From contig NC_008278.1 of NCBI RefSeq assembly GCF_000058485.1, forward strand, positions 4,396,962 through 4,460,961: a stretch of DNA of 64,000 bases. Reading direction: 5' to 3'. The position numbers and the translations under genes are program-made. The notes beneath the pieces are model-generated. The model was given only the letters and a program-made list of their open reading frames with translations. It searched no databases and was not told the DNA's origin. The DNA is from Frankia alni ACN14a. Its GTDB lineage: Bacteria; Actinomycetota; Actinomycetes; Frankiales; Frankiaceae. Of this stretch, positions 1 to 47,831 are shown one piece after another; the first letter of the stretch is position 1, and every line of letters starts with the position of its first letter.

Positions 1-3000
1 AGCAGGCCGGTGAACATCGAACCGGCCCCGTTCGGCAGCTCCACCGCCGCCGCCAGCAGCGGGTGAGGCGTGCCGTCCAGCCCCAGATCGGTGGGCCGCG
101 CCGGCTCGGGCGCGGGATTGAGCCAGTACCGCCTGGTCTGGAACGGGTAGGTGGGCAGCTCGACGTACCGGCCGCCGGCGAAGAACGGCACGAGGTCCAC
201 CGCCGTCCCGGCGACGTGCACTCGGCTGAGCGCCTCGCGCACGGACGCCGGCTCGGGGCGCCGCGGGTGCAGCAGGGGCACGGCGAGGACCTCGTCCACG
301 GTGTCCTGCACCATCGCGGACAGCGACCCGTCGGGGCCTAGTTCGACGAACCGGGTCGTCCCCGCGCCGTGTGCGGCGCGGACGGCGTCGGCGAACCTGA
401 CCGGGCGGCGAAGCTGCTCCAGCCAGTAGTCCGCCCCGGACATCTCCTCGGCGTCGGCGATCCGGCCGGTCAGGGTGGACACGATCGACGTCGCGGCGGG
501 GGCGAACGTGACCTCGGCGAGGACCGCGCGCCAGCGTGCGAGCACGTCGTCCATGTGCGGCGAGTGGAAGGCGTGGCTGACCGCGAGCCGGGTGGCCCGG
601 CGGCCGCCGTCCTTCCAGCGCGCGACGAGCTGGTCCACCGCGTCGGCGTCGCCGGACAGCACGACCGAGGCGGGCCCGTTGACGGCGGCGACGGCGACCC
701 GGCCGCCGGTCTCGGCGACCAGGTCCCCGGCCTCGTCCTCGGTGGCGGCGAACGCGGCCATCGCGCCGCCCTCGCGGGCGGACTGCATCAGCTCACCGCG
801 GGCGGCGACCAGGGCGCAGGCGTCGGACAGCCCCAGGATCCCGGCGACATGCGCGGCGGCCAGCTCGCCGACCGAATGGCCGAGCAGGAGGTCCGGTGTG
901 AGCCCGTGGCTTTCGACCATCCGGTACAGCGCGACCTGCAGGGCGAACAGCGCCGGCTGGGCATACCGGGTCTGGCGCAGCCGGTCGGCGTCACCGTCGA
1001 CGAGGTCGTGCAGGCGGACGCCGAGCAGCGGGTCGAGGTGCGCGGCGACCTCGTCGAAGGCCGCGGCGTAGGCCGTCGACGCCGCCAGCAGGCCCGCGCC
1101 CATGCCCCGCCGCTGGGAGCCCTGGCCGGTGAACAGCAACGCCAGCCGCTGATCGGGCTGGGCCCGCCCGCGCCTGAGCGCGGGGTGCGCGGTCCCGCCG
1201 GCCAGCGCCCGCAGCGCCGGCAGGACGGTGTCGGCGTCGACCAGCACCGCCGCGCGCTCGGTGAACTGGGTCCGGTGGCGCGCCAACGTGAACGCGACAT
1301 CGACCAGCGCGGGCGCGCCCGCGGAGGCGAGCAGGTCACCGAGGGCGCTCGCCTGCGCCTGCAGCGCCGACTCCGTCCGCGCGGACAGCAGCAGCGGCAC
1401 CGGGCCGGCGTCCACAGCCGACTCGGTCGTGTCGGGCCGGTCGCGCGTGTCGGTCGTGTCGGAGGTGTCGGAGGTGTCGGAGGTGTCGGTGGGTGCCTGT
1501 TCGAGGATGACGTGCGCGTTCGTCCCACTGATACCGAACGACGACACCCCCACCCGCCGCGGCCGACCCCCCTGCGGCCACCCCACCTCCTCCCGCAACA
1601 ACGCCACCCCCGACCCCACCCACTCCACCCGCGGCGACGGCTCCTCCACAAACAACGTCCGCGGCAACACCCCCGCCCGCAACGCCATCACCATCTTGAT
1701 AACCCCACCCACACCCGCCGCCGCCTGCGTATGCCCCACATTCGACTTCAACGACCCCAACCACAACGGCACCTCACGACCACCACCCCCATACACCGCC
1801 GCCAACGCCCCCACCTCAATCGGATCCCCCAACCGCGTCCCCGTCCCATGACCCTCCACCACATCCACCTCACCCGCCGACACCCCCGCATCCGCCAAAG
1901 CCCGCACAATCACCCGCTCCTGCGCCCGACCACTCGGCGCCGTCAACCCATTCGACGCACCATCCTGATTCACCGCCGAACCCGCCACCACCGCCAACAC
2001 CGGATGCCCCAACCGCCGCGCCCGCGACAACCGCTCCACCACCACCACACCCACACCCTCCGACCACCCCGTCCCATCCGCCCCCGCCCCGAACGACCGG
2101 CACCGCCCATCCACCGACAACCCCCGCTGCCGCGCAAACTCCACAAACATCCCCGGCGACGCCATCACCGCCACCCCACCCGCCAACGCCACCCCACACT
2201 CACCCGACCGCACCGCCCCCACCGCCAGATCCAACGCCACCAACGACGACGAGCACGCCGTATCCACCGTCAACGCCGGACCCTCCAAACCCAACGTGTA
2301 CGCAATACGACCCGACAGGACGCTGGACTGGTTCCCGACCAACAGCAGCCCTTCCAGTTCCTCGGGAACGGTGCGCAGCCGGGCGGCATAGTCGTCATAC
2401 ATCGCGCCGACGAAGACGCCGGTGTCGGTACCCCGCAACGACGTCGGATCAATCCCCGCCCGCTCCAACGCCTCCCACGACACCTGCAACATCAACCGCT
2501 GCTGCGGATCCGTCGCCAACGCCTCCCGCGGACTCATCCCAAAAAACCCCGCATCAAACTCCCCCGCCCCGTACAAAAAACCACCCCGACGCGTGTACGT
2601 CGTCCCCACCCGCTCCGGATCCGGATCAAACAAACCCTCCAGATCCCAACCCCGATCAGCCGGAAAATCACCCGTCACATCCAGACCATCCACCACCACC
2701 CGCCACAGATCATCCGGAGAAACCACCCCACCCGGATAACGGCACCCCATCCCCACAATCACCACCGGATCAGCCGAACCCGCCCGCACAGCAGCCGTCA
2801 CCACCGCCTTCTCCGCCCCGAACAGCTCGTCGAGGACGTGCTGACCGAGAACGTCGATGGTGGGGAACTCGAACACCACCGTGGCCGGCAGGCCGAGCCC
2901 GCTCAGCGCGTTGATCCGGTTGCGCAGCTCGACCGCGGTCAGCGAGTCGAAACCCAGGTCCCGAAACGCCCGGTCGGCCGCGAGGCCGGCATCGCCGTCA

Positions 3001-6000
3001 TGCCCGAGCACCGCGGCCACCTGGGCCCGCAGCAGCTCCACGACGGCTCGATGCCGGTCCCGGGGACGCTCGGCCCGCAGCCGGCCGGCCCAGCCCGCGC
3101 CAGCGTCCGCACCCGCCGCGCGACCGGCCACGGGCACCCGAACCAGGTCCGCGAACAGTGGCCGCAGCCGGCCGGCCACGGCTTCCGCCCGCAGCACCGC
3201 CTCGTCCAGAGTGGACACGACGAGGTGCGGCTCGGTGCGTCGGTCGAGGACGGCGAGCGCCCCTTCGTCGGCGACCTCTCCGACACCATGGCGGGCCAGT
3301 CGCGCGCGGTCGGCAGCGCCAAGGTGACCGGTCATCGCGCTGGCCTGCGTCCACAGCCCCCACGCGATCGCCGTGCCCGGCAGGCCCCGGGACCGCCGGT
3401 GGACCGCCAGCGCGTCGAGGAAGGTGTTGCCCGCGGCGTAGTTGGCCTGACCGGGAGCGCCGACCGTGGCGACCGCGGAGGAGAACAGCACGAAGTGGTC
3501 GAGCGCCAGATCGGCGGTCAGTTCGTGCAGGTGCCAGGCGGCGTCGACCTTGGGCCGCAGGGCATGCGCGAGCTGGGCCCCGGTCATCGCCTCGACGGTG
3601 GCGTCGTCGAGCACTCCGGCGGTGTGGACGACCCCGCGCAGCGGGCGATCGGCCGGAATGTCCGCGAGCAGGGCCGCGAGCTCGTCCCGGTCGGCGATGT
3701 CGCAGGCCGCGACCGTCACCTGGGCTCCCGCCGCGCGCAGCTCGGCGGCCAGCTCGGCCGCACCCGCTGCGGCCGGGCCGCTACGGCTGGCAAGCAGCAG
3801 GTGCGGCGGCTCGGGCTGCCCGGCCAGCCGCCGGGCGACCAGGCCGCCGAGGGCGCCGGTGCCACCGGTGATCAGGACCGTCCCGGTGAACGCCACGGCC
3901 TCGGCGTCCTCGAACGTGCCGCGGACCAGGCGGGGCACCAGCAGCTCGTCCGCGCGCACGGCCGCCTCCGGCTCGTCCACCGCGACCAGCACGGCCACCG
4001 GAGCCGGGGCGTCCACGTGGACCAGCGTGACGCGCCCTGGATGCTCGGCCGCGACGGTCCGCACCAGCCCGGTCACCGTGGCCGATGCCGGCTCGTCGGC
4101 GGCGAGCACGATCGTGAGCCGGGTGCCCGTGAGGGCCGGCTCGGCCAGCCAACGCTGAAGCAGCTCGAGCGCCGCCCGCGCACGGGCGTGCGCCTCGTCC
4201 ACCACAGGCGGGTCGTCCACCACAGGCGGGTCGTCCACCACAGGCGCCTCTGCCACCACGGCCGCGGAGCCGCCGATCGCCGCCAGCGCCACTTCTGGCG
4301 CGGCCCGCCCACCCGCGATCGCCGCGACCAGTGCGGCCACACCGTCCAGGACCTCGGGGTCGCCGGTCAGGTCGATCAGGTGGCGTGGATCGCCGGAGCC
4401 GGCGACCACCACCGCGTCCAGCTCCGTCCCGCCGGCCGGTGCGGTGGCAACGGCCGATCCGGTCACGGCGCCCGGCCGCGTCCACTCGACGTGGTACGCC
4501 GGCTCCACCGCGTGCGCCGAGACTGCCCGGGCCAGATCCCGGTGGGAGACCGGCCGGAACGCGAGCGAGTCGATCGCGCCCACCGGCGCCCCGACACCGT
4601 CCGCGAGCAGGTAGCGCACCCGGCTGTCGCCGAGCGGCTCGACGCGTATCCGCAACGCCGTCGCCGGCCCGGTCAGGCGCAGCCCCTCGAACGCGAACGG
4701 CAACAGCGGCCGGCCCGGCTCCTGCGCGCCGATGCCCGCGAGCCCCGCCACGACCGGATGCAGCGCCGCGTCGAGCAACGCCGGGTGGACCGCGAAGTCG
4801 CCGGCCAACTCGCCCGCCGCGATCTGCGCGTACACGGTGTCGCCGACGCGCCAGGCCGCGGTGAGCCCCTGAAACGCCGGACCGTAGTCGTATCCCAGGG
4901 CGAACAACCGGCCGTACACGTCGGTCAGATCGACCGGGTCGGCTCCGGCCGGCGGCCACACCGCCAGGTCACCCGACCCGTGACCGGGCCGCTCACCCTC
5001 CGCAACAGGAGCTGCGTCGGCGACGACGGCGCTCGCGTGTCGGTTCCATGCGCCGTCTGCACTCGAGCGCGCGTAGACGCCGAGTTCGCGCCGCCCGTCC
5101 GGGCCGGCCCCGCCGACGCGGACCTGCACCTGGACCGGACGCTCGGGGGTGAGCGCCAGCGGCGCGGTCAGGGTGATCCCGACGACGTCGGGGCTGCCGA
5201 CGGCGCCGCCGGCGTGGGCCGCCAGTTCGGCGAAGGCGGTGCCGGGCACCAGCACGGTGCCGAACACCCGGTGATCGGCCAACCACGACTGGGCGGTGAG
5301 ATCGATGGTCCCGGTCAGGACGGCACCGCCGTCGGCGAGCTCGACCTGCACGCCGGCCAGCGGGTGCCGACCGACGGTGAGACCCAGCCGTGACGCCTGC
5401 GCGGCGGGTACCACGGGCGTGAGCCAGTAGCGGGTGCGGTCGAAGGCGTACGTCGGCAGCTCGGGGCGCACCGCGATGGGGCGTGCCCAGGACACGGCCG
5501 CACCCGCCAGATCCGCGGCGGCCAGCGCCCGGCGGAAGGCCGCGGAGCCGTCGGTATCCCGCCGCAGGGTGGCGACGACCGCGCCGCCGACCGTGCGGTC
5601 CGCGAGGATGTCGTCGACCCCGAGGGTCAGCACCGGATGCGGGCTCACCTCGATGAACCGGTGGCAGCCGTCGTCCAGCGCCGCCCGGATCGCCGGGTCG
5701 AACCGGACCGGCTGGCGCAGGTTGCGGTACCAGTACGCGGGGTCCAGGGTCGCGGTGTCGACCCGGCCGCCGGTGACCGACGAGTAGAAGGCCACAGGCG
5801 TGGACCGCGGGCTCAGCCCGGCGAAGGTCTCACGGAGGTGATCCCGCAGCGGCTCCACATGGCTCGTGTGCGAGGCGTAGTCCACCGGGATTCGGCGGGC
5901 CCGGATGCCGGCCTGCTCGCATCGGCCGAGCAGATCCTCGAGCGCACCGGCGGCACCGGCCACGACGGTTGCCCGCGGCCCGTTGAGCGCGGCGATCTCG

Positions 6001-9000
6001 ACGTCCCCCGGGGACCGCGCCAACAGCTCGCGCACGTCGTCGGCGCCGAGCGCGATCGACATCATGCCGCCGCCACCCGCGATCCGGACGAGCGCCTTGC
6101 TACGCACAGTGATCAGGCGGGCCGCATCAGCCAGCGTCAGTGCGCCGGCGACGTACGCGGCCGCGATCTCCCCCTGCGAATGACCGACGACCGCGTCGGG
6201 CCGCACACCGCCCTCGCGCCACAGCGCCGCAAGGGAGACCATCACCGCGAACAGCACCGGCTGTACGACATCGACGCGGTCCAGTCCCGGTGCGCCCGCG
6301 TCGCCCTGCAGGACGCCGAGCAGCGACCAGTCGGTGTGCTCGGCGAACGCGCGCTCGCACGCCTCGATCTCCGCTCTGAACACCGGGGACGCCGCCAGCA
6401 GCGCCCGGCCCATCTCGGGCCACTGCGAGCCCTGCCCGGGAAACACGAACACCGTGCGCCCGGTGACCCGCTGCCCGGTGAGGACCGCGTCGGCGACGTC
6501 CCCGTCTGCCAGGCCGGCCAGCCGGTCCACGAGCGTCGTCTGGTCCTCGGCGAACACGGCGGCGCCGTGGTCGAACCGGGTCCGTGACAGCAGCGAACCG
6601 GCAACGTCCGTGCTCGTCAGCCCGGGATGCTCCCGAAGGTGGTCGGCCAGGGCCCGGGCCTGCCGGCGCAGGGCCTCGGGGTCGGGGCCGGACAGCAGCA
6701 CCGGAGGGCCGGCGACGGGGCGCGACGGCGACGGCGACTGCGGCTGCGGCTGCGGCTCGGGTGCCTGTTCGAGGATGACGTGCGCGTTCGTCCCACTGAT
6801 ACCGAACGACGACACCCCCACCCGCCGCGGCCGACCCCCCTGCGGCCACCCCACCTCCTCCCGCAACAACGCCACCCCCGACCCCACCCACTCCACCCGC
6901 GGCGACGGCTCCTCCACAAACAACGTCCGCGGCAACACCCCCGCCCGCAACGCCATCACCATCTTGATAACCCCACCCACACCCGCCGCCGCCTGCGTAT
7001 GCCCCACATTCGACTTCAACGACCCCAACCACAACGGCACCTCACGACCACCACCCCCATACACCGCCGCCAACGCCCCCACCTCAATCGGATCCCCCAA
7101 CCGCGTCCCCGTCCCATGACCCTCCACCACATCCACCTCACCCGCCGACACCCCCGCATCCGCCAAAGCCCGCACAATCACCCGCTCCTGCGCCCGACCA
7201 CTCGGCGCCGTCAACCCATTCGACGCACCATCCTGATTCACCGCCGAACCCGCCACCACCGCCAACACCGGATGCCCCAACCGCCGCGCCCGCGACAACC
7301 GCTCCACCACCACCACACCCACACCCTCCGACCACCCCGTCCCATCCGCCCCCGCCCCGAACGACCGGCACCGCCCATCCACCGACAACCCCCGCTGCCG
7401 CGCAAACTCCACAAACATCCCCGGCGACGCCATCACCGCCACCCCACCCGCCAACGCCACCCCACACTCACCCGACCGCACCGCCCCCACCGCCAGATCC
7501 AACGCCACCAACGACGACGAGCACGCCGTATCCACCGTCAACGCCGGACCCTCTAAACCCAACGTGTACGCAATACGACCCGACACCACGCTCGGCGTGG
7601 TACCGGTGAGCAGATAGCCGTCCGCGACGCCGCCGCCGCCCTCGGCAAGCCGGTATCCGTACTCGCTACCGGTCGCGCCGACGAAGACGCCGGTGTCGGT
7701 ACCCCGCAACGACGTCGGATCAATCCCCGCCCGCTCCAACGCCTCCCACGACACCTGCAACATCAACCGCTGCTGCGGATCCGTCGCCAACGCCTCCCGC
7801 GGACTCATCCCAAAAAACCCCGCATCAAACTCCCCCGCCCCGTACAAAAAACCACCCCGACGCGTGTACGTCGTCCCCACCCGCTCCGGATCCGGATCAA
7901 ACAAACCCTCCAGATCCCAACCCCGATCAGCCGGAAAATCACCCGTCACATCCAGACCATCCACCACCACCCGCCACAGATCATCCGGAGAAACCACCCC
8001 ACCCGGATAACGGCACCCCATCCCCACAATCACCACCGGATCAGCCGAACCCGCCCGCACAGCAGCCGTCACCACCGCCGCGGCCGCGGGCTCGCCGGCG
8101 GCTCCGCGCGCGTGGTCGCCGCGCAGATGGCCGACGAGCGCCTCCGCCGAGGGGTAGCTGAACAGCGTGGCCGTGGTCAGCTCGGTGTTCAGCGCGCCGG
8201 TGAGCCGGTCGCTGAGCTCGGTCATGCCGAGCGAGTCGAGTCCCAGGTCCCGGAAGGGAGCCGCCCGGTCCAGGGCCGCGGCGTCGCGGTGCCCCAGCAC
8301 CGCGGCGAGCTCCGCGAGGACCACCTGTTCGACGTCCGGCCCGGACGAGTTCGGCTCGCCCGCCACCGCCTCGACGACGGGCTCCGGCCCGAGGGCAGGC
8401 GGCGTCTCGACGGCCGGCTGCGCCTCGGCGGCGGGCTTCGGTCCGGGTGCGGGCGGGGTGCTCGCGGGGTCGGCCCCGGTCCCGAGTTCGAGCCAGTGGC
8501 GTTCGCGCTGGAACGGATAGGTCGCCAAGGCCACGCGCGGGCCACCGGGTCCGAACACCGCGTCCCAGTCCAGGCTCGCCCCGGCGACGAACAGCCGCCC
8601 GACCGCCAGGTCCAGATCGTCCTGATCACCCAGGACCGGCACGACGGCGGCGGCCCGTCCCAGGCTCGCCCGGCCCAGCCCGCTGAGCGTACGGCCGGGG
8701 CCGGCCTCCACCAGGATGGCGGCCCCGAGCTCGTGCAGCCGGTGCAGGCCCGCGTCGAACAGGACCGGGCGCCGGGCGTGCTCGACCCAGTAGTCCGCAT
8801 CGCCGGCGTCCGCCAGCTCCCCGGTCACCGTGGACACGAACGGGATCACTGGCGCACGGAACGTGATGCCGGCCAGCTCCGCGCGGAACTCCTCGAGCAT
8901 CGGTTCCATGAGCGGCGAGTGGAAGGCATGGCTGACCTCGAGCCACCGGGTGCGATAGCCCCGGTCTGCGGCCGCGGCGCGGACCGCGTCGAGCGCCGCA

Positions 9001-11075
9001 CGGGCGCCGGCGACCACGACCGAGGACGGTCCGTTGACGGCGGCGAGTCCCGCCACCTCCTCGTGTCCCGCGAGCAGAACGGAGATCTCGTGTTGCGGCG
9101 CGGCGACGGCCAGCATTGCTCCGCCGCCGGGAAGCCGCTGCATCAGCCGGCCGCGGGCGGTGATCATCCTGGCCGCTGACGGCAGGTCGAGGATGCCCGC
9201 GCAGTGTGCCGCGGCCACCTCGCCGATCGAATGCCCGGCGACGAGGGCCGGTTCGACTCCCCACGACGCGAGCAGCCGGAAGGTGGCCACCTCGACCGCG
9301 AACAGGGCCGGTTGGGTGTACCGAGTCTGCCCGAGTAGCTCCGCGTCCGCGCCGGACGCCCAGATCACCTCGCCGATCGGCCGGGGAAGGTACCCGTCGA
9401 GCGCGGCGGCGGCCTCGTCGAAGGCGTCTCGCCAGACGGCGAAGTCCCGGTAGGCCCGCCGTCCCATCCCAAGCCGCTGGCTGCCCTGCCCGGGAAACAG
9501 CACCGCGACCGCGCCGGCGACCGCGCCGGCGACCGCCTGCCCGGTGACGATCCCCGCATCGGCGCGCCCTTCGGCGAGCGCAGTGAGGCCTGCCAGCGCG
9601 TCCCCGGTGACCGCGGCCCGGACCCCGAACGCCGTCCTGGTCGCGGCGAGCGTGCGGGCCAGGCCCGCGGGCACCCCGCCGCGCTCGGTGACGAGGTCGC
9701 GCACCTGTCGCGCCCGGGCCCACAGCGCGGCTTCGGTGCGCGCGCTCACCAGCAGGGTGGCGACCGTTCCCGCGGTCGCCTCGCCACCCGACGGCGACGG
9801 CGACGGCGGCTCGGCCAGCACGAGGTGGCAGTTGGTGCCGCCCATCCCGAACGAGCTCACCCCGGCGACCAGCCGCTCCTCGGGCCGTGGCCAGTCACCG
9901 CCGAAGTCGCGCACCTGCAGGTGCGCGGCGGCGAGGTCGATCTGCGGACTCGGCTCGGCGTAGTTCAGGCTGGCCGGCAGCGACCGCCTGGCGATGCTGA
10001 GCACCGTCTTGAGCAGGCCGGTGATCCCGGCCCCGCCCTCGAGATGGCCGACGTTTGTCTTGACCGACCCGACCTGCAGCGGGGCCCCGCCACCGGCCAC
10101 GAGGCCGAGCGCGCGGGCCTCGATCGGGTCGCCCACCGGTGTGCCCGTGCCGTGCAGCTCGACGTACTGGACCTGCTCGGGTCGGACTCCGGCCTCGGCC
10201 CGGGCGCGGGCGATCACCTGCGCCTGCGCCTGCGCGCTCGGCACGGTGAGCCCGTCGGTGGTCCCGTCGTTGTTGATCGCCCCGCCGAGAACGACCGCGT
10301 GGACGTGGTCGCCGTCGGCGAGCGCCGCGGCGAGCGGCTTGAGCAGGACCAGCCCCGCGCCCTCCCCGCGGACGTAGCCGCTGGCCCGGCGGTCGAACGT
10401 GTAGCAGCGCCCGTCCGGGGACAGGGCACCGAAGCGGGTCACCGCGGCCGTGCCCCGGGGATCGACGATGAGGTTGACCCCGCCGGCGAGCGCCGTCGTC
10501 GACTCCCCGCGCCGCAGGCTCTCGCAGGCCAGGTGCACCGCCACCAGGGACGAGGACTGGGCGGTGTCCACCACGATGCTCGGCCCGCCCAGCCCGAGGG
10601 TGTAGGACACGCGATTGGCGATGATGCCCCGCGTCGTCCCGGTCAGGGTGTGCCGGGAGGTCGAATGCCGGGACAGCGCCGCGTACTCGTCCGCGAGGGA
10701 GCCGATGAACACCCCGGTCGCGGTGCCGCGCAGCGAGGCGGGCAGCACGCCGGCGTCCTCCAGGACCTCCCAGCTCAGCTCGAGGATCAGCCGCTGCTGA
10801 GGATCCATCGCCGCCGCCTCGCGCGGTGAGATCCCGAAGAACTCCGCGTCGAACTCGTCGATCGCGTCGAGATAGCCGCCGTAGCGCTGGCCAGGGGCCA
10901 CGAGGTCGTCGAGCGCCGCCGCGTCCCAGCGCCCCGCCGGCACCTCGCGCACGCTGCTACGCCCCTCGACGAGCAGCCGCCAGAACGCCTCGGGATCCGG
11001 CGCGCCCGGCAGACGGCACGCCAGCCCGATGACGGCGACGGGCTCCTTGGCCGAGGCGTTCGCGCTGCTGTCCAT
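1..11075 (-). CDS. Modular type I polyketide synthase, loading module plus modules 1 and 2 (3' end outside window)
   Basis: At least 3,691 residues lie inside the window and the frame is still open at base 1. Approximate domains: loading KS 11-420, AT 525-830, ACP (Ser948); module 1 KS 1010-1436 (Cys1185), AT 1540-1840, DH 1900-2170 (HxxxGxxxxP from His1935), KR 2390-2570, ACP (Ser2711); module 2 KS 2770-3195 (Cys2941), AT 3315-3620, then the start of a DH. The loading KS reads DTAQSSS with Gln173 instead of Cys, the KSQ type that decarboxylates its ACP-bound unit. AT1 and AT3 carry HAFH (malonyl type); AT2 carries YASH (methylmalonyl type). The KR has LDD (B type) and intact Ser/Tyr/Asn; there is no ER. 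ATG at 11075 follows GGAGAGG. The same frame was confirmed at the start codon, KSQ, both KS cysteines, AT2 and ACP2. Inferred early chain: acetyl starter plus one methylmalonate unit taken to an alpha-methyl enoyl. It is the likely AbyB1 counterpart. Confidence 0.96.
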   Translation of the reverse strand, partial: MDSSANASAKEPVAVIGLACRLPGAPDPEAFWRLLVEGRSSVREVPAGRWDAAALDDLVAPGQRYGGYLDAIDEFDAEFFGISPREAAAMDPQQRLILELSWEVLEDAGVLPASLRGTATGVFIGSLADEYAALSRHSTSRHTLTGTTRGIIANRVSYTLGLGGPSIVVDTAQSSSLVAVHLACESLRRGESTTALAGGVNLIVDPRGTAAVTRFGALSPDGRCYTFDRRASGYVRGEGAGLVLLKPLAAALADGDHVHAVVLGGAINNDGTTDGLTVPSAQAQAQVIARARAEAGVRPEQVQYVELHGTGTPVGDPIEARALGLVAGGGAPLQVGSVKTNVGHLEGGAGITGLLKTVLSIARRSLPASLNYAEPSPQIDLAAAHLQVRDFGGDWPRPEERLVAGVSSFGMGGTNCHLVLAEPPSPSPSGGEATAGTVATLLVSARTEAALWARARQVRDLVTERGGVPAGLARTLAATRTAFGVRAAVTGDALAGLTALAEGRADAGIVTGQAVAGAVAGAVAVLFPGQGSQRLGMGRRAYRDFAVWRDAFDEAAAALDGYLPRPIGEVIWASGADAELLGQTRYTQPALFAVEVATFRLLASWGVEPALVAGHSIGEVAAAHCAGILDLPSAARMITARGRLMQRLPGGGAMLAVAAPQHEISVLLAGHEEVAGLAAVNGPSSVVVAGARAALDAVRAAAADRGYRTRWLEVSHAFHSPLMEPMLEEFRAELAGITFRAPVIPFVSTVTGELADAGDADYWVEHARRPVLFDAGLHRLHELGAAILVEAGPGRTLSGLGRASLGRAAAVVPVLGDQDDLDLAVGRLFVAGASLDWDAVFGPGGPRVALATYPFQRERHWLELGTGADPASTPPAPGPKPAAEAQPAVETPPALGPEPVVEAVAGEPNSSGPDVEQVVLAELAAVLGHRDAAALDRAAPFRDLGLDSLGMTELSDRLTGALNTELTTATLFSYPSAEALVGHLRGDHARGAAGEPAAAAVVTAAVRAGSADPVVIVGMGCRYPGGVVSPDDLWRVVVDGLDVTGDFPADRGWDLEGLFDPDPERVGTTYTRRGGFLYGAGEFDAGFFGMSPREALATDPQQRLMLQVSWEALERAGIDPTSLRGTDTGVFVGATGSEYGYRLAEGGGGVADGYLLTGTTPSVVSGRIAYTLGLEGPALTVDTACSSSLVALDLAVGAVRSGECGVALAGGVAVMASPGMFVEFARQRGLSVDGRCRSFGAGADGTGWSEGVGVVVVERLSRARRLGHPVLAVVAGSAVNQDGASNGLTAPSGRAQERVIVRALADAGVSAGEVDVVEGHGTGTRLGDPIEVGALAAVYGGGGREVPLWLGSLKSNVGHTQAAAGVGGVIKMVMALRAGVLPRTLFVEEPSPRVEWVGSGVALLREEVGWPQGGRPRRVGVSSFGISGTNAHVILEQAPEPQPQPQSPSPSRPVAGPPVLLSGPDPEALRRQARALADHLREHPGLTSTDVAGSLLSRTRFDHGAAVFAEDQTTLVDRLAGLADGDVADAVLTGQRVTGRTVFVFPGQGSQWPEMGRALLAASPVFRAEIEACERAFAEHTDWSLLGVLQGDAGAPGLDRVDVVQPVLFAVMVSLAALWREGGVRPDAVVGHSQGEIAAAYVAGALTLADAARLITVRSKALVRIAGGGGMMSIALGADDVRELLARSPGDVEIAALNGPRATVVAGAAGALEDLLGRCEQAGIRARRIPVDYASHTSHVEPLRDHLRETFAGLSPRSTPVAFYSSVTGGRVDTATLDPAYWYRNLRQPVRFDPAIRAALDDGCHRFIEVSPHPVLTLGVDDILADRTVGGAVVATLRRDTDGSAAFRRALAAADLAGAAVSWARPIAVRPELPTYAFDRTRYWLTPVVPAAQASRLGLTVGRHPLAGVQVELADGGAVLTGTIDLTAQSWLADHRVFGTVLVPGTAFAELAAHAGGAVGSPDVVGITLTAPLALTPERPVQVQVRVGGAGPDGRRELGVYARSSADGAWNRHASAVVADAAPVAEGERPGHGSGDLAVWPPAGADPVDLTDVYGRLFALGYDYGPAFQGLTAAWRVGDTVYAQIAAGELAGDFAVHPALLDAALHPVVAGLAGIGAQEPGRPLLPFAFEGLRLTGPATALRIRVEPLGDSRVRYLLADGVGAPVGAIDSLAFRPVSHRDLARAVSAHAVEPAYHVEWTRPGAVTGSAVATAPAGGTELDAVVVAGSGDPRHLIDLTGDPEVLDGVAALVAAIAGGRAAPEVALAAIGGSAAVVAEAPVVDDPPVVDDPPVVDEAHARARAALELLQRWLAEPALTGTRLTIVLAADEPASATVTGLVRTVAAEHPGRVTLVHVDAPAPVAVLVAVDEPEAAVRADELLVPRLVRGTFEDAEAVAFTGTVLITGGTGALGGLVARRLAGQPEPPHLLLASRSGPAAAGAAELAAELRAAGAQVTVAACDIADRDELAALLADIPADRPLRGVVHTAGVLDDATVEAMTGAQLAHALRPKVDAAWHLHELTADLALDHFVLFSSAVATVGAPGQANYAAGNTFLDALAVHRRSRGLPGTAIAWGLWTQASAMTGHLGAADRARLARHGVGEVADEGALAVLDRRTEPHLVVSTLDEAVLRAEAVAGRLRPLFADLVRVPVAGRAAGADAGAGWAGRLRAERPRDRHRAVVELLRAQVAAVLGHDGDAGLAADRAFRDLGFDSLTAVELRNRINALSGLGLPATVVFEFPTIDVLGQHVLDELFGAEKAVVTAAVRAGSADPVVIVGMGCRYPGGVVSPDDLWRVVVDGLDVTGDFPADRGWDLEGLFDPDPERVGTTYTRRGGFLYGAGEFDAGFFGMSPREALATDPQQRLMLQVSWEALERAGIDPTSLRGTDTGVFVGAMYDDYAARLRTVPEELEGLLLVGNQSSVLSGRIAYTLGLEGPALTVDTACSSSLVALDLAVGAVRSGECGVALAGGVAVMASPGMFVEFARQRGLSVDGRCRSFGAGADGTGWSEGVGVVVVERLSRARRLGHPVLAVVAGSAVNQDGASNGLTAPSGRAQERVIVRALADAGVSAGEVDVVEGHGTGTRLGDPIEVGALAAVYGGGGREVPLWLGSLKSNVGHTQAAAGVGGVIKMVMALRAGVLPRTLFVEEPSPRVEWVGSGVALLREEVGWPQGGRPRRVGVSSFGISGTNAHVILEQAPTDTSDTSDTSDTTDTRDRPDTTESAVDAGPVPLLLSARTESALQAQASALGDLLASAGAPALVDVAFTLARHRTQFTERAAVLVDADTVLPALRALAGGTAHPALRRGRAQPDQRLALLFTGQGSQRRGMGAGLLAASTAYAAAFDEVAAHLDPLLGVRLHDLVDGDADRLRQTRYAQPALFALQVALYRMVESHGLTPDLLLGHSVGELAAAHVAGILGLSDACALVAARGELMQSAREGGAMAAFAATEDEAGDLVAETGGRVAVAAVNGPASVVLSGDADAVDQLVARWKDGGRRATRLAVSHAFHSPHMDDVLARWRAVLAEVTFAPAATSIVSTLTGRIADAEEMSGADYWLEQLRRPVRFADAVRAAHGAGTTRFVELGPDGSLSAMVQDTVDEVLAVPLLHPRRPEPASVREALSRVHVAGTAVDLVPFFAGGRYVELPTYPFQTRRYWLNPAPEPARPTDLGLDGTPHPLLAAAVELPNGAGSMFTGL
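1490..2808 (-). repeat. GRINS-like skewed repeat, copy A (KS of module 2)
   Basis: This segment covers most of the module 2 KS and is nearly base-for-base identical to 6758-8079, except for a replaced block at 2318-2401. On the coding strand it is extremely G/T-rich, using TTG, GTG, GGG and GCG codons, so the plus strand looks like long C/A runs; flanking AT and ACP DNA has ordinary C-ending codons. High-identity duplication plus intense strand skew matches GRINS (genetic repeats of intense nucleotide skews) described in assembly-line PKS genes. Both copies keep the frame and the DTACSSS active site. Confidence 0.85.
4197..4250 (-). repeat. 18-bp tandem repeat in the DH-KR linker of the PKS
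   Basis: Two exact 18-bp units (4197-4214, 4215-4232) and a partial third encode a VVDDPP hexapeptide repeat in the region between DH and the catalytic KR. It is in frame and lies outside all catalytic motifs. Confidence 0.85.
6758..8079 (-). repeat. GRINS-like skewed repeat, copy B (KS of module 1)
   Basis: Partner of the repeat at 1490-2808, offset 5,268 bp before and 5,271 bp after a variable block (7586-7672, 87 bp, against 84 bp in the other copy). By eye the shared parts differ at one base (7554 against 2286), which turns a TTG Leu codon into TTA here. The repeat begins and ends at the KS/linker borders, so it moves a whole KS body while leaving AT and ACP untouched. Confidence 0.85.
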
Positions 11076-11130: not shown

Positions 11131-11973
11131 TCAGCGGTCCCCGTGTGCCTGCCGGTGGAGGGCCGCCACCACCACGTCGGCCACCTCCCGCGCCCGCGGC
11201 ACCAGGTAGAAATGGCCGCCGGTGAACACCCGGGACTCGAAGCCGCCGGCGGTGTGGTTGCGCCATCGCCGCGCCTCGCCGACGCTGACCCTCGGGTCGG
11301 CCGTGCCCGTCAGCACGGTGATCGGGCAGTCGACCCGCGCGCCGGGGATCGGTACGTATCCGCGCAGTGCCTCGTAGTCGGCCCGGATCGCCGGAAAGAC
11401 CATCCTGCGGAGATCCGTGTTGTCGAGCACCGCGCGGGAGGTGCCGCCCAGGGCGAGCACCTCCTCCTCCAGCGACCGGTCGTCGACGAGGATCGCCGGG
11501 TCGATCCGGATCGCTGCCGGGGCGCGGGCCGCCGACGCGAACAGCCGGACGGGCGCTGTCGGGGCGAGCAGGGCCGCCTCGAAGGCGACCAGCGCCCCCA
11601 TGCTGTGGCCGAGATAGGCCGTGGGCGTCGCGTCGTCCAGCGCGGCGAGCTGGGCCGCGACCTGCCTGGCCAGTTCCCGCAGGTCGCTGACGGCGGGTTC
11701 GTCGAAGCGGTCCAGCCGGCCGGGATACTGCACCGCCAGCAGCTCGGCACGCCCGCCCAGGCTTCTCGCCAGCGGCCGGAAAAACGCGGCCGAGCCGCCT
11801 GCGTGCGGGAAGCACACGACCCGCCCCCCGGCGCCGACACCGGTGGCGACGCCGGTGCCGGCGGCAGTGGCGATGCCGGCGGCAGTGGTGGTGCCGGCGG
11901 CAGTGGTGGTGCCAATGGTGGTGGTGAACTGTCGCAGCCACACGCCGCGGTCCGGGGCGCCGGTGATGGTCAT
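11131..11973 (-). CDS. Type II thioesterase (AbyT-type editing enzyme)
   Basis: A 280-residue alpha/beta hydrolase of the type II thioesterase family, which removes stalled or wrong acyl groups from PKS carrier proteins. The core starts at VVCFPHAGG, with the nucleophile in GHSMG (Ser124) and a C-terminal GGHFYL supplying the catalytic His. The family is usually about 250 residues; the excess is a low-complexity N-terminal stretch of Thr, Ala and Gly (about residues 17-49) made by 18-bp tandem repeats, placed before the conserved core. ATG at 11973 shares a base with the TGA of the upstream hydrolase gene (TGATG), so the two are probably translationally coupled. The PKS starts 55 bp downstream, consistent with one operon. 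Confidence 0.92.
   Translation of the reverse strand: MTITGAPDRGVWLRQFTTTIGTTTAAGTTTAAGIATAAGTGVATGVGAGGRVVCFPHAGGSAAFFRPLARSLGGRAELLAVQYPGRLDRFDEPAVSDLRELARQVAAQLAALDDATPTAYLGHSMGALVAFEAALLAPTAPVRLFASAARAPAAIRIDPAILVDDRSLEEEVLALGGTSRAVLDNTDLRRMVFPAIRADYEALRGYVPIPGARVDCPITVLTGTADPRVSVGEARRWRNHTAGGFESRVFTGGHFYLVPRAREVADVVVAALHRQAHGDR
11855..11908 (-). repeat. 18-bp tandem repeat, three units, inside the thioesterase gene
   Basis: Three near-identical 18-bp units encode Thr/Ala/Gly-rich hexapeptides before the hydrolase core. A degenerate continuation is visible on both sides. Confidence 0.85.
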
Positions 11974-13052
11974 CAGCCCGACCCGGACCGCGCCCCCGCG
12001 ACAGCCGCGGCAAGCTGTGCCTTGACGCCGTCGTCGGCCCCCGGCCACATGTCGAGGATCGCGTGCAGGCTCCACAGACGGGTCTCGGCGAGGTGCGAGG
12101 GCGCACCGTGCACGTCGTCGTGTTCCACCAGCCGCAGATCGCGCACCGCGGCCTTGAGCCGGTCGACGTCCCCGGCCGGGATGATCTCGTCGCGGCGTGC
12201 GGCCACGACGGCCAGCGGGATGTCCAGCGCGCGCAGCCGCTCGTCGTCGAGCGCCCACGGCCCGATGCGCGCGAAGACCTCCTCGGCGCTGACACCGACG
12301 AGGTGCGCGAGGGTGTCCCTGGTCACCTTCGGGACGCGCCGCCACCAGGCGGCGTCGGTGAAGAAGTCGCTCACCGGCGTGCCGTTGCCGACGATGCCGC
12401 GCACCCGTGGGTCGTGCAGCGCCGCCGTGACCGCGAGGTGCCCGCTGAAGCTGAGCGCGAGCAGGTAGGTCTGCTCGACCCGAGCCTGCCCGCTCAGGGT
12501 GTCCAGGATCGCCGGGAACAGCCGCCAGCTGTCACCGCGGTAGGGCAGCGGGTTCTCGCCCACCCGCGGCAGCTCGGCGACCACCCCGGCAAAGCCGAAC
12601 TGGACCAGCTGCGGCAGCACCGCACCCCACTGCTCCTTCGGGCTGACGATGCCACCTGTCATGATCACCAGCGGTCTGGGGTTCTCGGCCGACAGCCCCA
12701 TCGTCAGGACCCGGACCGGCAGCCCGTCGATCTGGATCTCCGCCGTGTCGAGGCCGGGCTGCGTCACCCGCCACCGGTCGAACGCGTCGACGCAGCGACC
12801 CAGCGCACGCGCCCGGCCTGGACCGTCGACGAACGGGAACCGGCCCATGTTGTAGTACTGGCAGGCGGCCAGGGTCTGGCCGGCGGCATCGAGCTCCTCG
12901 CCGGCGCGGATCCACTCGTGGGCCCACGAGCCGGGCCCGTCGCCCGCGTCGGTCGTGATCGCGTCGAGCAGGCTCGCGTAGTGGTCGGCCGCGAGATTCT
13001 GCGAGATCGCGTGCGCCAGCACGAACCGCTTCAGCTCGGCGAGGTCGTTCAT
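11973..13052 (-). CDS. FrsA-like alpha/beta hydrolase (AbyA5/Agg5-type tetronate eliminase)
   Basis: A 359-residue protein with an N-terminal helical cap (about 1-110) and a C-terminal alpha/beta hydrolase domain similar to the FrsA/DUF1100 and 2,6-dihydroxypseudooxynicotine hydrolase group. The expected nucleophile elbow reads ALSFSG, so Ser sits in a modified GxSxGG; likely Asp and His partners lie in AARRDE and HDDVHG. In tetronate pathways (Agg5, AbyA5) such a protein eliminates acetate from the O-acetylated tetronate to give the exocyclic methylene. The function here is inferred from its position directly after the matching acyltransferase, with a 4-bp overlap at its start and a 1-bp overlap with the thioesterase at its end. 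Confidence 0.85.
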   Translation of the reverse strand: MNDLAELKRFVLAHAISQNLAADHYASLLDAITTDAGDGPGSWAHEWIRAGEELDAAGQTLAACQYYNMGRFPFVDGPGRARALGRCVDAFDRWRVTQPGLDTAEIQIDGLPVRVLTMGLSAENPRPLVIMTGGIVSPKEQWGAVLPQLVQFGFAGVVAELPRVGENPLPYRGDSWRLFPAILDTLSGQARVEQTYLLALSFSGHLAVTAALHDPRVRGIVGNGTPVSDFFTDAAWWRRVPKVTRDTLAHLVGVSAEEVFARIGPWALDDERLRALDIPLAVVAARRDEIIPAGDVDRLKAAVRDLRLVEHDDVHGAPSHLAETRLWSLHAILDMWPGADDGVKAQLAAAVAGARSGSG

Positions 13053-13804
13053 TGCTCGACCGCCTCCAGCGCCGCAGTGATCTCGGTCAGGATGTCGGCG
13101 GCCTCCGCGCCGTCGATCACCCGGTGGTCGAAGGTCAGCGACAGCCGCAGCACCGGCGCGACCGTGACCTGCCCGGACCGGACGACGGGTCTGTCGACGA
13201 TCCGACCGACCCCGAGAGTGATCGTGGTGCCGCCGACCGAGTGGAACGAGTCGACGACACTGTGCCCCAACGAGGTGACGCTGAAGGTGCCCACGATGGC
13301 CGGGCGCAGTTCCAGCCGTGCCGCCGCGGCGCGAAATCTCTCGTGGGCCTGCGCCGGCGGCAACTCCCGCAGCGCCCGGATGGCGGCGAAGTCCTCGGCG
13401 GTGTCCGGGTCACCCGCGGCGACCTGGTCGAGCCGGGCCTGGATGTCGGCGAGGCTCGCGCTCTGCAGGTCGGGAAGCACGGTGGCCAGCACCACCCGCC
13501 GCCCGTCGAGGATCCGATCGAGCGTGACCTTCGCGCTCACCGTGTCGAAGGTTGCCAGGCGCGGCTCGATCCGTCCGTCGATCGCCGCATTGGCCTCGGG
13601 GTGCCGGCGCAGCACGCCGGCCGCGGCGTGCACGACATAGCTCACCACGGACCGACGCCCGCCCGTCGCCGCGGCCTTCGCGCGGCCGGCGACGATCGCG
13701 GTCGCGTCCACCTCGGTGTCCAGAAAGACGGGGGAGAAATCCCTGATCTGATCGAGGAAGAACAGGGTGTGCTGCCGTTGGCTGGGAAACTCATGCTCGC
13801 TCAT
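13049..13804 (-). CDS. Stand-alone 2-oxoacid dehydrogenase-type acyltransferase (AbyA4/Agg4-type)
   Basis: A 251-residue protein consisting only of the E2 catalytic domain of 2-oxoacid dehydrogenase complexes; lipoyl and E1/E3-binding domains are absent. The catalytic HxxxDG motif is present near the C-terminus as HRVIDG, preceded by the typical LSLTFD strand. In agglomerin and abyssomicin pathways this type acetylates the tetronate hydroxymethyl group, after which the FrsA-like enzyme eliminates acetate. ATG at 13804 overlaps the stop of the ACP gene (ATGA), and its own stop overlaps the hydrolase start by 4 bp, so the three genes are tightly coupled. Confidence 0.88.
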   Translation of the reverse strand: MSEHEFPSQRQHTLFFLDQIRDFSPVFLDTEVDATAIVAGRAKAAATGGRRSVVSYVVHAAAGVLRRHPEANAAIDGRIEPRLATFDTVSAKVTLDRILDGRRVVLATVLPDLQSASLADIQARLDQVAAGDPDTAEDFAAIRALRELPPAQAHERFRAAAARLELRPAIVGTFSVTSLGHSVVDSFHSVGGTTITLGVGRIVDRPVVRSGQVTVAPVLRLSLTFDHRVIDGAEAADILTEITAALEAVEQ

Positions 13805-14031
13805 GCATGCACCAGCTGGTAGATCGACTCCAGGCTCCCGGCCTCCAGCAGCGCCGGCAGGGAGATCTGGGCATCGGCATTTCTCTCCAGGATCACAAGC
13901 ACGGCCAGCAGTTGCACCGAATCCCAGCCGGGCAGCTCGTCGAGACCGAGTCCCAGATCCTCCACGTTCACGTCGAGCCCTATCTCGTCCCGCAGGAGAC
14001 CGACGAACGTGGTTCTCGTCATGGCGGCCAT
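13801..14031 (-). CDS. Discrete acyl carrier protein (AbyA3-type)
   Basis: A 76-residue free ACP with the phosphopantetheine Ser in GWDSVQLL. In tetronate clusters the separate ACP carries the glyceryl three-carbon unit that is joined to the polyketide. ATG at 14031 is chosen because GGAGGTGA sits at good spacing; a GTG at 14037 is the alternative. The gene lies 45 bp after the KAS III gene and overlaps the acyltransferase by 4 bp. In known clusters an FkbH-like gene usually adjoins it; there is none here. Confidence 0.9.
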   Translation of the reverse strand: MAAMTRTTFVGLLRDEIGLDVNVEDLGLGLDELPGWDSVQLLAVLVILERNADAQISLPALLEAGSLESIYQLVHA

Positions 14032-14076
14032 CCACACTCACCTCCAGCCGTTCACTTCAGTTTTCCGGTGGGCCGG

Positions 14077-15108
14077 TCACGCTCTTTCCAGCGCCAGACC
14101 CGACTTGATCCACTTGCTCGACTCGATCGCCACGGCAAGCACCTTCGCCGGCCCCGACACGATCTCCAGCAGCTGATCCAGCTGGAAGAAGAGCAACGCG
14201 TTGCCGTTGTTTCCGGTCGATTCGACGCAGGAGATCTCCCGCGCTGACGGCAGGTTCAGTCTGCTGGTGATCTTTGTGGTCATCGCCACGGACAGCTGAG
14301 GCGGAAGCAGGTAGTCGACCTCGGCGCGCTGCCAGTCGAGGTCGTCGAGGAGCTCGTCGACCACCTCTTCGCTCATCTGCGGCACCGACTCCTCGATCGC
14401 CTTGTAGTCCTCCTGGGCCGCGACGACAGGCCCGTCCCGGTCGACCAGGCCGAACCACCGCAGCACCTGACCCGGCTCACGATCGAGGCCGGTCAGGCGA
14501 GTCAGTACCGCGCGGACGACGGGGGCGTCGGGACGGTCCTCGGTGGACAGCACCGCCGCCCCGGCCCCGTCGCCGAACAGGACGAAGTTGACCAGTTCCC
14601 GCGGCGGCACCGCGGCGAGCTTGACGTTGACGTCGTAGTGCTTGGCAATCACGTCCCCGCCGATGACCAGGGCCGTGCGGTAGCGCCCGGTCGCCAGCAG
14701 GGAGGTCGCGACGTCGAAAGTCTGTACCGCGCCGGAGCAGCCGGACTGGAGCTGGAAGGTCGGCACCCCGTCGATCCGCAGTCGATCGGCGATCACATTG
14801 ACCGTGGCCGGCATGAGGTCGTCCGGGGTCGCGGTGCCGAGGACGACGACGTCGACATCCTCCGCGCTGATCCGGGCCCGTTCGAGGGCCTTCGCCGCCG
14901 CGATGTACCCGAGGTCGGCGAGGGACTGGCCCGGCTCGCCGGTCGCCAGGTCCACCGCCAGGTGCCGGGTCTTCGTACCGATGAAGGTGTCGACCCACTG
15001 CTGCCACAGGTGGTCCATTCCGAACCGGCCGGCCAACGCGGCGGTGTCAATGGGCGGCCCCGGCAGAGCGGTTCCGGCGGAGAGCAACCGCACTGGACCT
15101 CGCGGCAT
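14077..15108 (-). CDS. KAS III (FabH)-like tetronate-forming enzyme (AbyA1-type)
   Basis: A 343-residue thiolase-fold protein of the FabH/KAS III class. The nucleophile is Cys124 in QSGCSGA, and GDGAGA and a C-terminal STGNNGN segment are present. The segment that carries the catalytic His in primary-metabolism FabH reads LLPPQLS, with no His visible. In tetronate pathways this branch is assigned to joining the glyceryl unit to the polyketide and closing the tetronate ring. GAGGTGA stands 5 bases before ATG at 15108. It is the first gene of the leftward operon KAS III, ACP, acyltransferase, hydrolase, thioesterase, PKS. Confidence 0.9.
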   Translation of the reverse strand: MPRGPVRLLSAGTALPGPPIDTAALAGRFGMDHLWQQWVDTFIGTKTRHLAVDLATGEPGQSLADLGYIAAAKALERARISAEDVDVVVLGTATPDDLMPATVNVIADRLRIDGVPTFQLQSGCSGAVQTFDVATSLLATGRYRTALVIGGDVIAKHYDVNVKLAAVPPRELVNFVLFGDGAGAAVLSTEDRPDAPVVRAVLTRLTGLDREPGQVLRWFGLVDRDGPVVAAQEDYKAIEESVPQMSEEVVDELLDDLDWQRAEVDYLLPPQLSVAMTTKITSRLNLPSAREISCVESTGNNGNALLFFQLDQLLEIVSGPAKVLAVAIESSKWIKSGLALERA

Positions 15109-41824: not shown

Positions 41825-44659
41825 TCAGGCCCTGCGGGGACTGGTGCGGCCGGCGAGGACCGCCCGGATGTCGGCCGTGATCTCGCTGACGACGGGTTCA
41901 CGCAGCACGGTGTCGTGGTCGCCGCCCACGGTGCGGTAGGTCGCCTCGCCGGTCAGCAGCGCGCGCCAGACGTCCCGGCGGTGCGCCGGCGACGCGGTCG
42001 CCGTGTAGACCAGCGCCCGCCCGTTCCAGGGCCTGGGCCGGTACAGCCTGGTGAGCACCCGGGACTGGTCGTAGAAGACGTCGTACTGGTTCATGCCCCT
42101 GAACTGGACGACGCCGGCCAACGGAAGTTGGGCCGCGCGCCAGGCCCGGCTGAGCAGGCCCCGTGCGGCCGCCCGTGCGGCGACTCCCGCGGCGCGCGCC
42201 GGTCCCGTGGCCGGTCCCCCGGCCTGGTCCGATCGCCCGGCCTGGTCCGATCGCCCAGCCTGGTCCGCAGCCGCGGCCGGGTGCGAGGTCCTGGTCGGGT
42301 GCGACGTCGTGGTCGGGTGCGACGTCGTGGTCGGGCTCCCTGGCAGCGCGGAGGGCAGCACCCCGCCCGCGAAGACGCCGCCGGCCGGGTCGGGCGGGAA
42401 GCTGTCGATGAGGATCAGCAGCTCGACGTGCCCGCCGGCCTCGGTGAGCAGCCGGGCGGTCTCGAAGGCGACGAGGCCGCCGAAGGAGTGGCCGGCCAGA
42501 TGGTAGGGGCCGGCGGGTTGGAGCAGGCGCAGGGTGCGGGCGTGGCGGCGGGCGGCGGCGTGGATGGACCAGTCGGGCAGGCCGCGGTATTCCAGGCCGT
42601 GGGCCTGGATGCCGTAGACGGGGCGCTCGCCGTCGAAGTGGCGGGCGAAGCCGAGCATGCCGATGGCCAGTCCGCCGGCGCCGCAGAAGCAGAACAGGGG
42701 CGGCCCGTCGCCGGTGGTGCGCAGCGGCACGACGGTCGGGTGGCGCAGCACGTCGGTACCGACGTTGCGCAGGCGGACGGTGAACTCGGCGACAGTGGGG
42801 GCGTCGGCGACGGTGGAGGTGGGCAGGTCGACGCCGAGCTCGTCGGCGATCCTGGTGAGCAGCTCCTCGGCGATGAGGGAGTCGCCGCCGAGTTCGACGA
42901 AGTCGTCGTGGATGCCGACGTCGTCGAGGTGCAGGGCGGCGGCCCACACGCCGGCGACGGCCTCCTCCCACTGGTCGCGGGGCGGGTCCTGCTCCGGTTT
43001 CGGGCCGGTGGGGGCGGGGGGCAGGTTCAGACGGTCGACCTTGCTGCGGTCGGTCCGCGGCAGCGCGGGGACCAGCATGACGACGGCCGGCACCATGTAG
43101 GACGGCAGCTTGGCCCGCAGCAGGCGCCTGATCGAGGCCGGGGAGACCCGGGCGCCGGTCGCGGGCACGACGTAGGCGACCAGCCGGGTGCGCTGCGTGC
43201 TCCGATCGGCCACGACGACGGCCTCGCGCACGTCCGCGCTCGCGAGCAGGGCGGACTCGATCTCGATCGGCTCGACCAGGTACCCGCGGATCTTCACGGC
43301 GGCGTCGTTGCGGCCGACGACGCGGAGCTGGCCGTCGGCGTCGAGGCGCCCGAGGTCGCCGGTGCGGTAGGTGGGCGTGCCGTCCGGATCGACGCCGAAC
43401 CGCGCGGCGCTCACCGCCGGCGCCCGCCAGTAGCCGCCCGTGATGAAGTGGCCCGCCACGACGATCTCACCCGTCTGTCCGGGGGGCAGCTCGACGCCGT
43501 CCGGCGAGATCACCCGGACCGCGACGTCGACGACCGGCCGCCCGGCCGGCATCACGCCGTCGGGCAGGTCCTCGTCCGACCAGATCGGCGCGCAGGTCGC
43601 GGTGCCGAGTTCCGAGGCCCCGTAGGAGACCAGGAACGCCGCGGTTGCCGGCAGGTGACTGCGGGCCAGGGCGACGTCGCGGGCGTAGATCGCCTCGCCG
43701 ACCGACAGGACGAACCGCAGGTCGCCGAGCACCTCGTCCGGCTCGAGGCAGCCGAACACGGTACGGATCAGCGCCGGCGTGGCCACGATGCCGGCCGGCC
43801 GGGTGGCGCGCAGCCAGTCGGCCAGGTCGCGCACGCCGCGGACCCGGGGGTCGTACATCTCGAGGGTGGTACCGAAGACCAGGCCGCCGATCATCCGGTT
43901 CATCCCCGAGATGAAGGAGTACGGCAGGAACAGCGGCAGTCGGTCGCCCGGCACCGGCCGCATCACGTCCCGGACCTGGATGGCGTAGTGGATGCCCAGC
44001 AGGGCGCGGTGGTGCCACACGACGCCCTTGGGCACTCCGGTCGAGCCGGAGGTGAAGATGAGCACCGCCGGATCGGTGTCGACCCGGCGCGGCGCGGTCG
44101 ACGCCACCCTGGCGGCCAGCGCCGGGGACCAGCCGGCGGCGCGCTCGTCGCCGACGTCGACCGTCGTCGCGATCCCCGGCAGCGCGGCGGCGGTCCGCTG
44201 GTCGGCGGAGCCGACCGGCCCGGTGACGCACACCGGGGCCCCGGCCAGTCCGACGATCTGCGCGAGGCGGTCGGGGGGAGTCAGCCGGTCGAGGGGCACG
44301 CAGGGCCGGCCGCTCGCGATGACACCCAGGACGGCGGCGATCCCGCTCGCGTCGTGGGGCAGCAGCACCGCGACGGGCGTGTCCGGGTCGGCCGCGGCCG
44401 GCTCCCGCAGGATCCGCTCGGCGACGACGTCCACCCAGGCGACGAGCTCGGCGAAGGTGACGGCCCGGTGCTCGTCGCGGACCGCCACGACGTCGCGGCA
44501 GACCGCGGCGACGACCCTGATCCGGTCGACGACGTTGCCGAACCGGTCGTCGGGCCGCAGCGGCGGCGGCGCCGGCGGCGCGACCGACGCCGACGCCGGC
44601 ACCGGCGTTGGCGCCGACCTCGACACCGACGTCGGCGGGGAGAGCGGGCCTTTCCTCAT
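41825..44659 (-). CDS. NRPS-like A-PCP-TE tridomain enzyme (furanone/quinone-synthetase architecture)
   Basis: A 944-residue single-module protein with no condensation domain. The adenylation domain (about 35-540) has the ATP loop FTSGSTGVPKG, YRTGDLGRLD and a late DRSKVDRLNL (the motif A10 Lys). The PCP has LGGDSL (Ser about 592); the thioesterase (about 650-935) has GHSFGG (Ser about 723) and a late GGDHDTVL His. The A4 core normally reads FDxS; here it reads SFISG, so the Asp that holds an amino group is missing, suggesting a non-amino-acid substrate such as a keto or aryl acid. Two 18-bp repeat arrays lengthen the TE lid. A-PCP-TE enzymes such as RalA dimerise arylpyruvates. The FMN oxidase next door could supply the keto acid. 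No clear ribosome site precedes ATG at 44659. Confidence 0.9.
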   Translation of the reverse strand: MRKGPLSPPTSVSRSAPTPVPASASVAPPAPPPLRPDDRFGNVVDRIRVVAAVCRDVVAVRDEHRAVTFAELVAWVDVVAERILREPAAADPDTPVAVLLPHDASGIAAVLGVIASGRPCVPLDRLTPPDRLAQIVGLAGAPVCVTGPVGSADQRTAAALPGIATTVDVGDERAAGWSPALAARVASTAPRRVDTDPAVLIFTSGSTGVPKGVVWHHRALLGIHYAIQVRDVMRPVPGDRLPLFLPYSFISGMNRMIGGLVFGTTLEMYDPRVRGVRDLADWLRATRPAGIVATPALIRTVFGCLEPDEVLGDLRFVLSVGEAIYARDVALARSHLPATAAFLVSYGASELGTATCAPIWSDEDLPDGVMPAGRPVVDVAVRVISPDGVELPPGQTGEIVVAGHFITGGYWRAPAVSAARFGVDPDGTPTYRTGDLGRLDADGQLRVVGRNDAAVKIRGYLVEPIEIESALLASADVREAVVVADRSTQRTRLVAYVVPATGARVSPASIRRLLRAKLPSYMVPAVVMLVPALPRTDRSKVDRLNLPPAPTGPKPEQDPPRDQWEEAVAGVWAAALHLDDVGIHDDFVELGGDSLIAEELLTRIADELGVDLPTSTVADAPTVAEFTVRLRNVGTDVLRHPTVVPLRTTGDGPPLFCFCGAGGLAIGMLGFARHFDGERPVYGIQAHGLEYRGLPDWSIHAAARRHARTLRLLQPAGPYHLAGHSFGGLVAFETARLLTEAGGHVELLILIDSFPPDPAGGVFAGGVLPSALPGSPTTTSHPTTTSHPTRTSHPAAAADQAGRSDQAGRSDQAGGPATGPARAAGVAARAAARGLLSRAWRAAQLPLAGVVQFRGMNQYDVFYDQSRVLTRLYRPRPWNGRALVYTATASPAHRRDVWRALLTGEATYRTVGGDHDTVLREPVVSEITADIRAVLAGRTSPRRA
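42221..42334 (-). repeat. Two 18-bp tandem-repeat arrays in the thioesterase domain
   Basis: Array 1 (42221-42256 plus a partial third unit) encodes DQAGRS repeats; array 2 (42281-42334, three units) encodes TTTSHP-type repeats. Both lie in the variable lid region of the thioesterase. Confidence 0.88.
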
Positions 44660-47264: not shown

Positions 47265-47403
47265 AGAATGGCGCCTTCCACAGGTTCACAAGAGGCGCCT
47301 AACATTTCAATTCCGATTTCGGTTTGGCGCTGTCCGGACCGGCCGGGGTACCGTCCACCCGCACCTTCACCGCGTTCGGGGAATGACCAGAAGGGATCAC
47401 ACG

Positions 47404-47667: not shown

Positions 47668-47831
47668 CCCAGGCCCGGCAGTAACCAGGCGCCGGCCACC
47701 GTTCGCTACTCGGCGCGCGTTCCCGGAACGTCGCGTCGAGCAGCGAACGGATCGGTGGCCGGGCGGCCTCCGCCGTGCCCGGCCCGCGGGTGCACCGCGC
47801 GTGTCGGCGGCGCTGGTGTAGCACTGAGGTC

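Follow-up and report, generated by a model that had tools for sequence, protein, structure and literature searches.

The window, that is, the whole 64,000-nucleotide stretch of the Frankia alni ACN14a genome analysed here (contig NC_008278.1, positions 4,396,962 to 4,460,961), contains the 5' portion of a gene of 6433 codons for a modular PKS. The gene lies on the minus strand, starts at 11075 and runs past the window to genome position 4388741. Pfam and domain searches give the domain order KSQ-AT-ACP-KS-AT-DH-KR-ACP-KS-AT. The loading-module KSQ (9804..11042), identified in translation by its DTAQSSS motif, is unskewed (0.02 for GC, 0.04 for TA). It is followed on the same strand by the KS of module 1 together with some of the ACP-KS linker (copy A, 6759..8079), the module 1 AT (5496..6452; PF00698), DH (4638..5366; PF21089 and PF14765), KR (3348..3884; PF08659) and ACP (2835..3035; PF00550), and the KS of extension module 2 (copy B, 1491..2808). 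The two KS copies are delimited by a run of DNA identity and by skew, and the module 1 AT lies outside this repeat. Read from the domain order, copy A takes its substrate from the KSQ-AT-ACP loading module and copy B from module 1 (KS-AT-DH-KR-ACP), whose DH is the presumed source of an alpha,beta-unsaturated intermediate delivered to copy B. Adjoining the PKS start, genes at 11131-15108 on the minus strand encode thioesterase, FrsA-like hydrolase, 2-oxoacid dehydrogenase acyltransferase-like and KAS III-like proteins, which possibly serve starter-unit supply or tailoring. An antisense open reading frame of 1674 amino acids (369-5393, plus strand) lies opposite the PKS modules, probably as a side effect of G+C-rich codon choice.

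The original prediction described two almost identical KS bodies interrupted by a differing block of 84 or 87 bp, and its positions are correct to the base. Outside the block, copies A and B have the same base at 1233 of 1234 positions: 1491-2317 in copy B and 6759-7585 in copy A differ by a single mismatch (2286 against 7554), and 2402-2808 and 7673-8079 do not differ at all. Identity stops abruptly at both outer edges of the copies. The G/T-rich character that the prediction set against the flanking domains is borne out by sliding windows of 300 bp, in which plus-strand GC skew falls to about -0.6 and AT skew rises to about +0.5 inside the copies, while both are near 0 outside. On the coding strand, both copies have a GC skew of 0.48 and a TA skew of 0.40 (gene background, 0.02 and 0.09). 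When the protein was held fixed and re-encoded with the PKS gene's own codon choice, the excess over this synonymous null reached a z of about 20 for GC and 10.6 for TA, which rules out amino-acid composition as the cause. The prediction was to be abandoned if the skew proved ordinary or the identity lower than that of the flanks; instead, the copies have the top two GC skews in a set of 215 KSs drawn from this genome and its relatives, and their identity is nearly total. A search of the Frankia alni ACN14a genome found no further GRINS-like copies; the remaining PKS KSs have no skew or a mild one in the opposite direction, with GC values from -0.22 to +0.12. Another PKS cluster of this genome (L133) holds a homogenised KS pair with reverse skew (GC -0.22 and -0.17) at 3320-4600 and 14524-15804 of L133 (C1, about 383319-384599 and 394523-395803).

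Outside the block, the copies differ only in the third base of one codon, TTA in copy A (7554-7556, minus strand; base 7554) and TTG in copy B (base 2286). This TTA, about ten codons away from the block, is the only one among the 6433 codons of the gene. TTA codons need the bldA tRNA in actinomycetes, so the synthase could be under developmental control.

The differing block occupies 7586..7672 (87 bp) in copy A and 2318..2401 (84 bp) in copy B, between GVFVG and SGRIAY and shortly before the active-site DTACSSS. Copy A encodes ATGSEYGYRLAEGGGGVADGYLLTGTTPSVV there and copy B AMYDDYAARLRTVPEELEGLLLVGNQSSVL, with a first residue, A, that they have in common; the two blocks share about 54% of nucleotides and about 40% of amino acids. 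Both are written in native codons. The fraction of degenerate codons with G or T in the third position (GT3) is 0.39 in the copy A block and 0.97 in its flanks. The unskewed island is slightly wider than the differing block, at about 39 codons, and includes ten native codons immediately 5' of the block that are the same in both copies (7674..7703 in A, 2403..2432 in B, by alignment and sequence). These ten codons lie between the recoding edge and the conversion edge, and suggest that the latest conversion slightly overran the recoded core.

By alignment, the block lies at the position of the VMYH/TNGQ motif in the dimer-interface gating loop of the KS, and it probably decides which substrate each KS takes. 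Mutagenesis of PikKS3 shows that this motif helps to select dehydrated intermediates (PMC11321453). The Frankia blocks begin at the same loop position, with ATGS in copy A, which follows the KSQ loading module, and the VMYH-like AMYD in copy B, which comes after a module that has both KR and DH, as VMYH-type KSs do. KSs of that type, recognised by VMYH at loop positions 1-4 and a DH one module upstream, accept alpha,beta-unsaturated intermediates. AMYD matches the M and the Y of VMYH at positions 2-3, and dehydration by module 1 is a prediction from its DH. In the first set of KSs collected, M-Y motifs are dominant after KR+DH modules and TNGQ is commonest after KR-only modules. Unlike the motifs described in PMC11321453, ATGS and AMYD are non-canonical, and gating by either is a putative role.

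Colinear synthases are found in Microbispora sp. H11081 (L021) and Actinokineospora auranticolor (L032), with KSQ domains 71-74% and KR domains 66-74% identical in amino acids. Within each of the three genomes, KS1 and KS2 are homogenised to a differing extent: their nucleotide identity in the N and C flanks is 1.00/1.00 in Frankia, 0.87/1.00 in L021 and 0.90/0.77 in L032, and it dips at the block (0.54, 0.62 and 0.64, respectively). Between genera, pairwise alignment gives a nucleotide identity of 0.76-0.80 for block B (the KS2 blocks) and 0.67-0.75 for block A, and 0.51-0.64 for A against B; the corresponding amino acid values for same-position orthologues are 79-85% for B and 63-66% for A, with about 40-50% between A and B. 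Trees of the block, built with FastTree and by neighbour joining with bootstrap, separate three A blocks from three B blocks (FastTree 1.0, NJ bootstrap 100%). The C flanks of the same genes cluster by genome with 100% bootstrap; the N flanks do so in Frankia and L032 and less clearly in L021 (46%). Because the block tree and the flank trees disagree, the pattern is that of an island passed on vertically amid sequence that evolves in concert: as judged from these trees, the block descends with its module position and the surrounding KS sequence is overwritten.

As given in PMC10394414 and PMC9899208, GRINS are repeats of roughly 1 kb, with a minimum of 500 bp, that have a DNA identity above 80-90% within one PKS, GC and TA skew both above 0.15-0.25, a location in assembly-line PKSs that are typically cis-AT and actinobacterial, and a signature of gene conversion. 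Copies A and B are GRINS in this sense. The repeat is 1.32 kb long with 1233 of 1234 flanking positions identical, its skew is 0.48/0.40 on the coding strand, the host gene is an assembly-line PKS whose nearest relatives are in actinomycetes, and conversion is indicated by the pattern of flanks grouping by genome and blocks by module position. In the account of Nivina et al. 2021 given by those papers, GRINS likewise are repeats of about 1.3 kb with more than 90% DNA identity in one actinobacterial cis-AT PKS, have GC and TA skew above 25%, lie in module-coding DNA and carry evidence of conversion; the Frankia copies differ from that account in being broken by an unskewed, unconverted gate block. 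The original prediction had also described these elements as proposed drivers of gene conversion and module diversification. The assignment to GRINS and the conversion hold up, the flanks grouping by genome, but diversification of KS function does not: it is the KS chassis that is homogenised and the specificity that is kept. A review of GRINS (PMC11907408) stresses diversification of the AT, in contrast to what is seen in the Frankia pair.

The same arrangement recurs in other clusters. Among 414 KSs from Frankia alni ACN14a, its family and other actinobacteria, pairs were taken from the same cluster when both adjacent 34-codon flanks were at least 90% identical, and a block identity below 75% was scored as a dip. 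Dips occur in 23 of the 42 qualifying pairs, spread over 20 clusters, or 18 groups once related clusters are merged. When a block was scanned along the KS, starts at codons 110-120 fell below 0.75 in 53-56% of pairs; a start at codon 130, which partly overlaps the block, did so in 24%, and all other positions in 0-21%. The median positions of the spared block's borders are codons 119 and 151. The block also ranks among the most variable parts of the KS generally. Homogenised pairs that have no G/T skew dip likewise (L032, and the G864 pair at 44616-50777; G863 dips less), which rules out skew as a precondition of sparing. Sparing is thus a general property of KS conversion, of which GRINS are the most visible case. 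In one further genome (G1007, contig C1), the block of the strongly skewed second KS (about 1497928-1499169) falls about 14 residues short of its counterpart in a partner that is otherwise near-identical.

Among skewed KSs, recoding and conversion go together. Spared blocks (identity at most 0.68) have a GT3 of 0.12-0.54 and shared blocks (at least 0.82) a GT3 of 0.58-1.00; the ranges are disjoint, and each block is thus of one of two kinds, native and specific to its module or converted and recoded. Recoding and conversion end at nearly one spot, which makes the skew of GRINS look unlike the effect of a mutational process acting in place. Block sharing also tends to follow upstream chemistry, as a partial rule with exceptions both ways. 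The block is shared (at least 0.75) in 10 of 14 pairs with the same upstream class and in 1 of 11 with different classes (Fisher p 0.0037), in a test spanning 33 clusters and 26 groups, some of them related, and with classes assigned crudely, by reading gene order from simple domain searches and with ER called by motif. The corresponding rank test is weak (p 0.03). The G1007, G964, G856 and G1021 pairs have the same class yet differ in the block, and the G348 pair shares the block across different classes.

These observations are best accommodated by a recent intragenic conversion that homogenised the KSs of modules 1 and 2 and left a gate block of about 30 codons to each module, an account we consider quite likely. 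KS1 and KS2 would have been homogenised by gene conversion with G/T-recoded sequence, the copying process being read from sequence patterns, and conversion would have halted on either side of the dimer-interface gating loop. Each module would thereby have kept a gate that fits the intermediate delivered from upstream, a starter for KS1 and an enoyl intermediate for KS2, and conversions overwriting the gate would be purged by selection where upstream chemistry differs. Of this account, the data show the identity and skew of the copies, the block's descent by vertical inheritance, its recurrence between borders that recur as well, and the coupling of recoding to conversion. We infer that sparing reflects purifying selection on substrate gating and not purely a barrier of heterology.

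Such a barrier remains a serious partial rival, if an improbable one as the whole explanation. Under it, a divergent block (about 54% identity, with indels) would end conversion tracts, the flanks would be converted separately, and the block would escape passively, with no selection involved. The borders do fall where identity resumes on both sides, and many blocks carry indels. However, the block has been converted and recoded in G348, G1032, G124 and G051/G856/G964, its sharing tracks upstream chemistry, and the long-kept divergence of paralogous blocks suggests selection. The remaining explanations carry far less weight. The mosaic look of the copies had been taken in the original prediction to mean that the block was replaced, and that look would result if a KS had been duplicated or converted and one copy had then received a block from elsewhere; both blocks, however, are orthologous to same-position blocks in two other genera and it is the flanks that are genome-specific. 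The discordance of the trees contradicts replacement, which we rate as very improbable, and reverses the claim: the block was spared and the flanks were overwritten. It is just as hard to credit that a local mutational or transcriptional pressure skewed both KSs alike in place. Some local process is called for by the unskewed state of the gene's other domains, but a pressure of this kind would not be expected to spare an old island of about 30 codons or to yield identity at 1233 of 1234 positions, and slow mutational skew in place is hard to reconcile with an island that is unskewed and vertically inherited. Least probable of all is a collapsed or mis-copied repeat in the assembly. Near-perfect repeats do endanger assemblies in general, yet this genome is on a single contig and 99.87% complete, each copy has a distinct block and unique flanks, and the like arrangement is present in independently sequenced genera.

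The conversion-and-sparing account extends what is known of KS evolution. Medema et al. 2014 (PMC4256081) described homogenisation of KSs within clusters through gene conversion (concerted evolution), speculated that conversion is less neutral for KSs, and located the variation left among rapamycin-family KSs close to the substrate site and the dimer interface. Their analysis is at the level of domains, with a structural map of one family; beyond it, the present data define a single contiguous block whose borders recur, which is inherited vertically and keeps native codons, and whose dip in identity is seen in 18 independent groups. A literature search, which did not extend to the original GRINS paper, found no account of a recurring spared KS block or of its native codons. 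Within known GRINS and concerted KS evolution, the sparing of a recurring gate block with native codons, as it appears in these sequences, is apparently new, with priority not established.

A wider reading, which we hold tentatively and at somewhat less than even confidence, is that actinobacterial KSs evolve on two tracks. Recoding-coupled conversion would renew the chassis, and a cassette of about 30 codons, bordered directly after GVFxG and directly before SGR, would be excluded and inherited with module position, with skew tied to conversion and not generated in place. Such a link of recoding to conversion bears on the origin of GRINS skew. If the reading is true, re-gating of a KS could use this cassette as a natural unit. 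KS gatekeeping is a major hurdle in PKS engineering, and a naturally protected gate now has named, recurring borders. Sparing of the gate may also account for how assembly lines survive constant copying between modules with the order of their chemistry intact.
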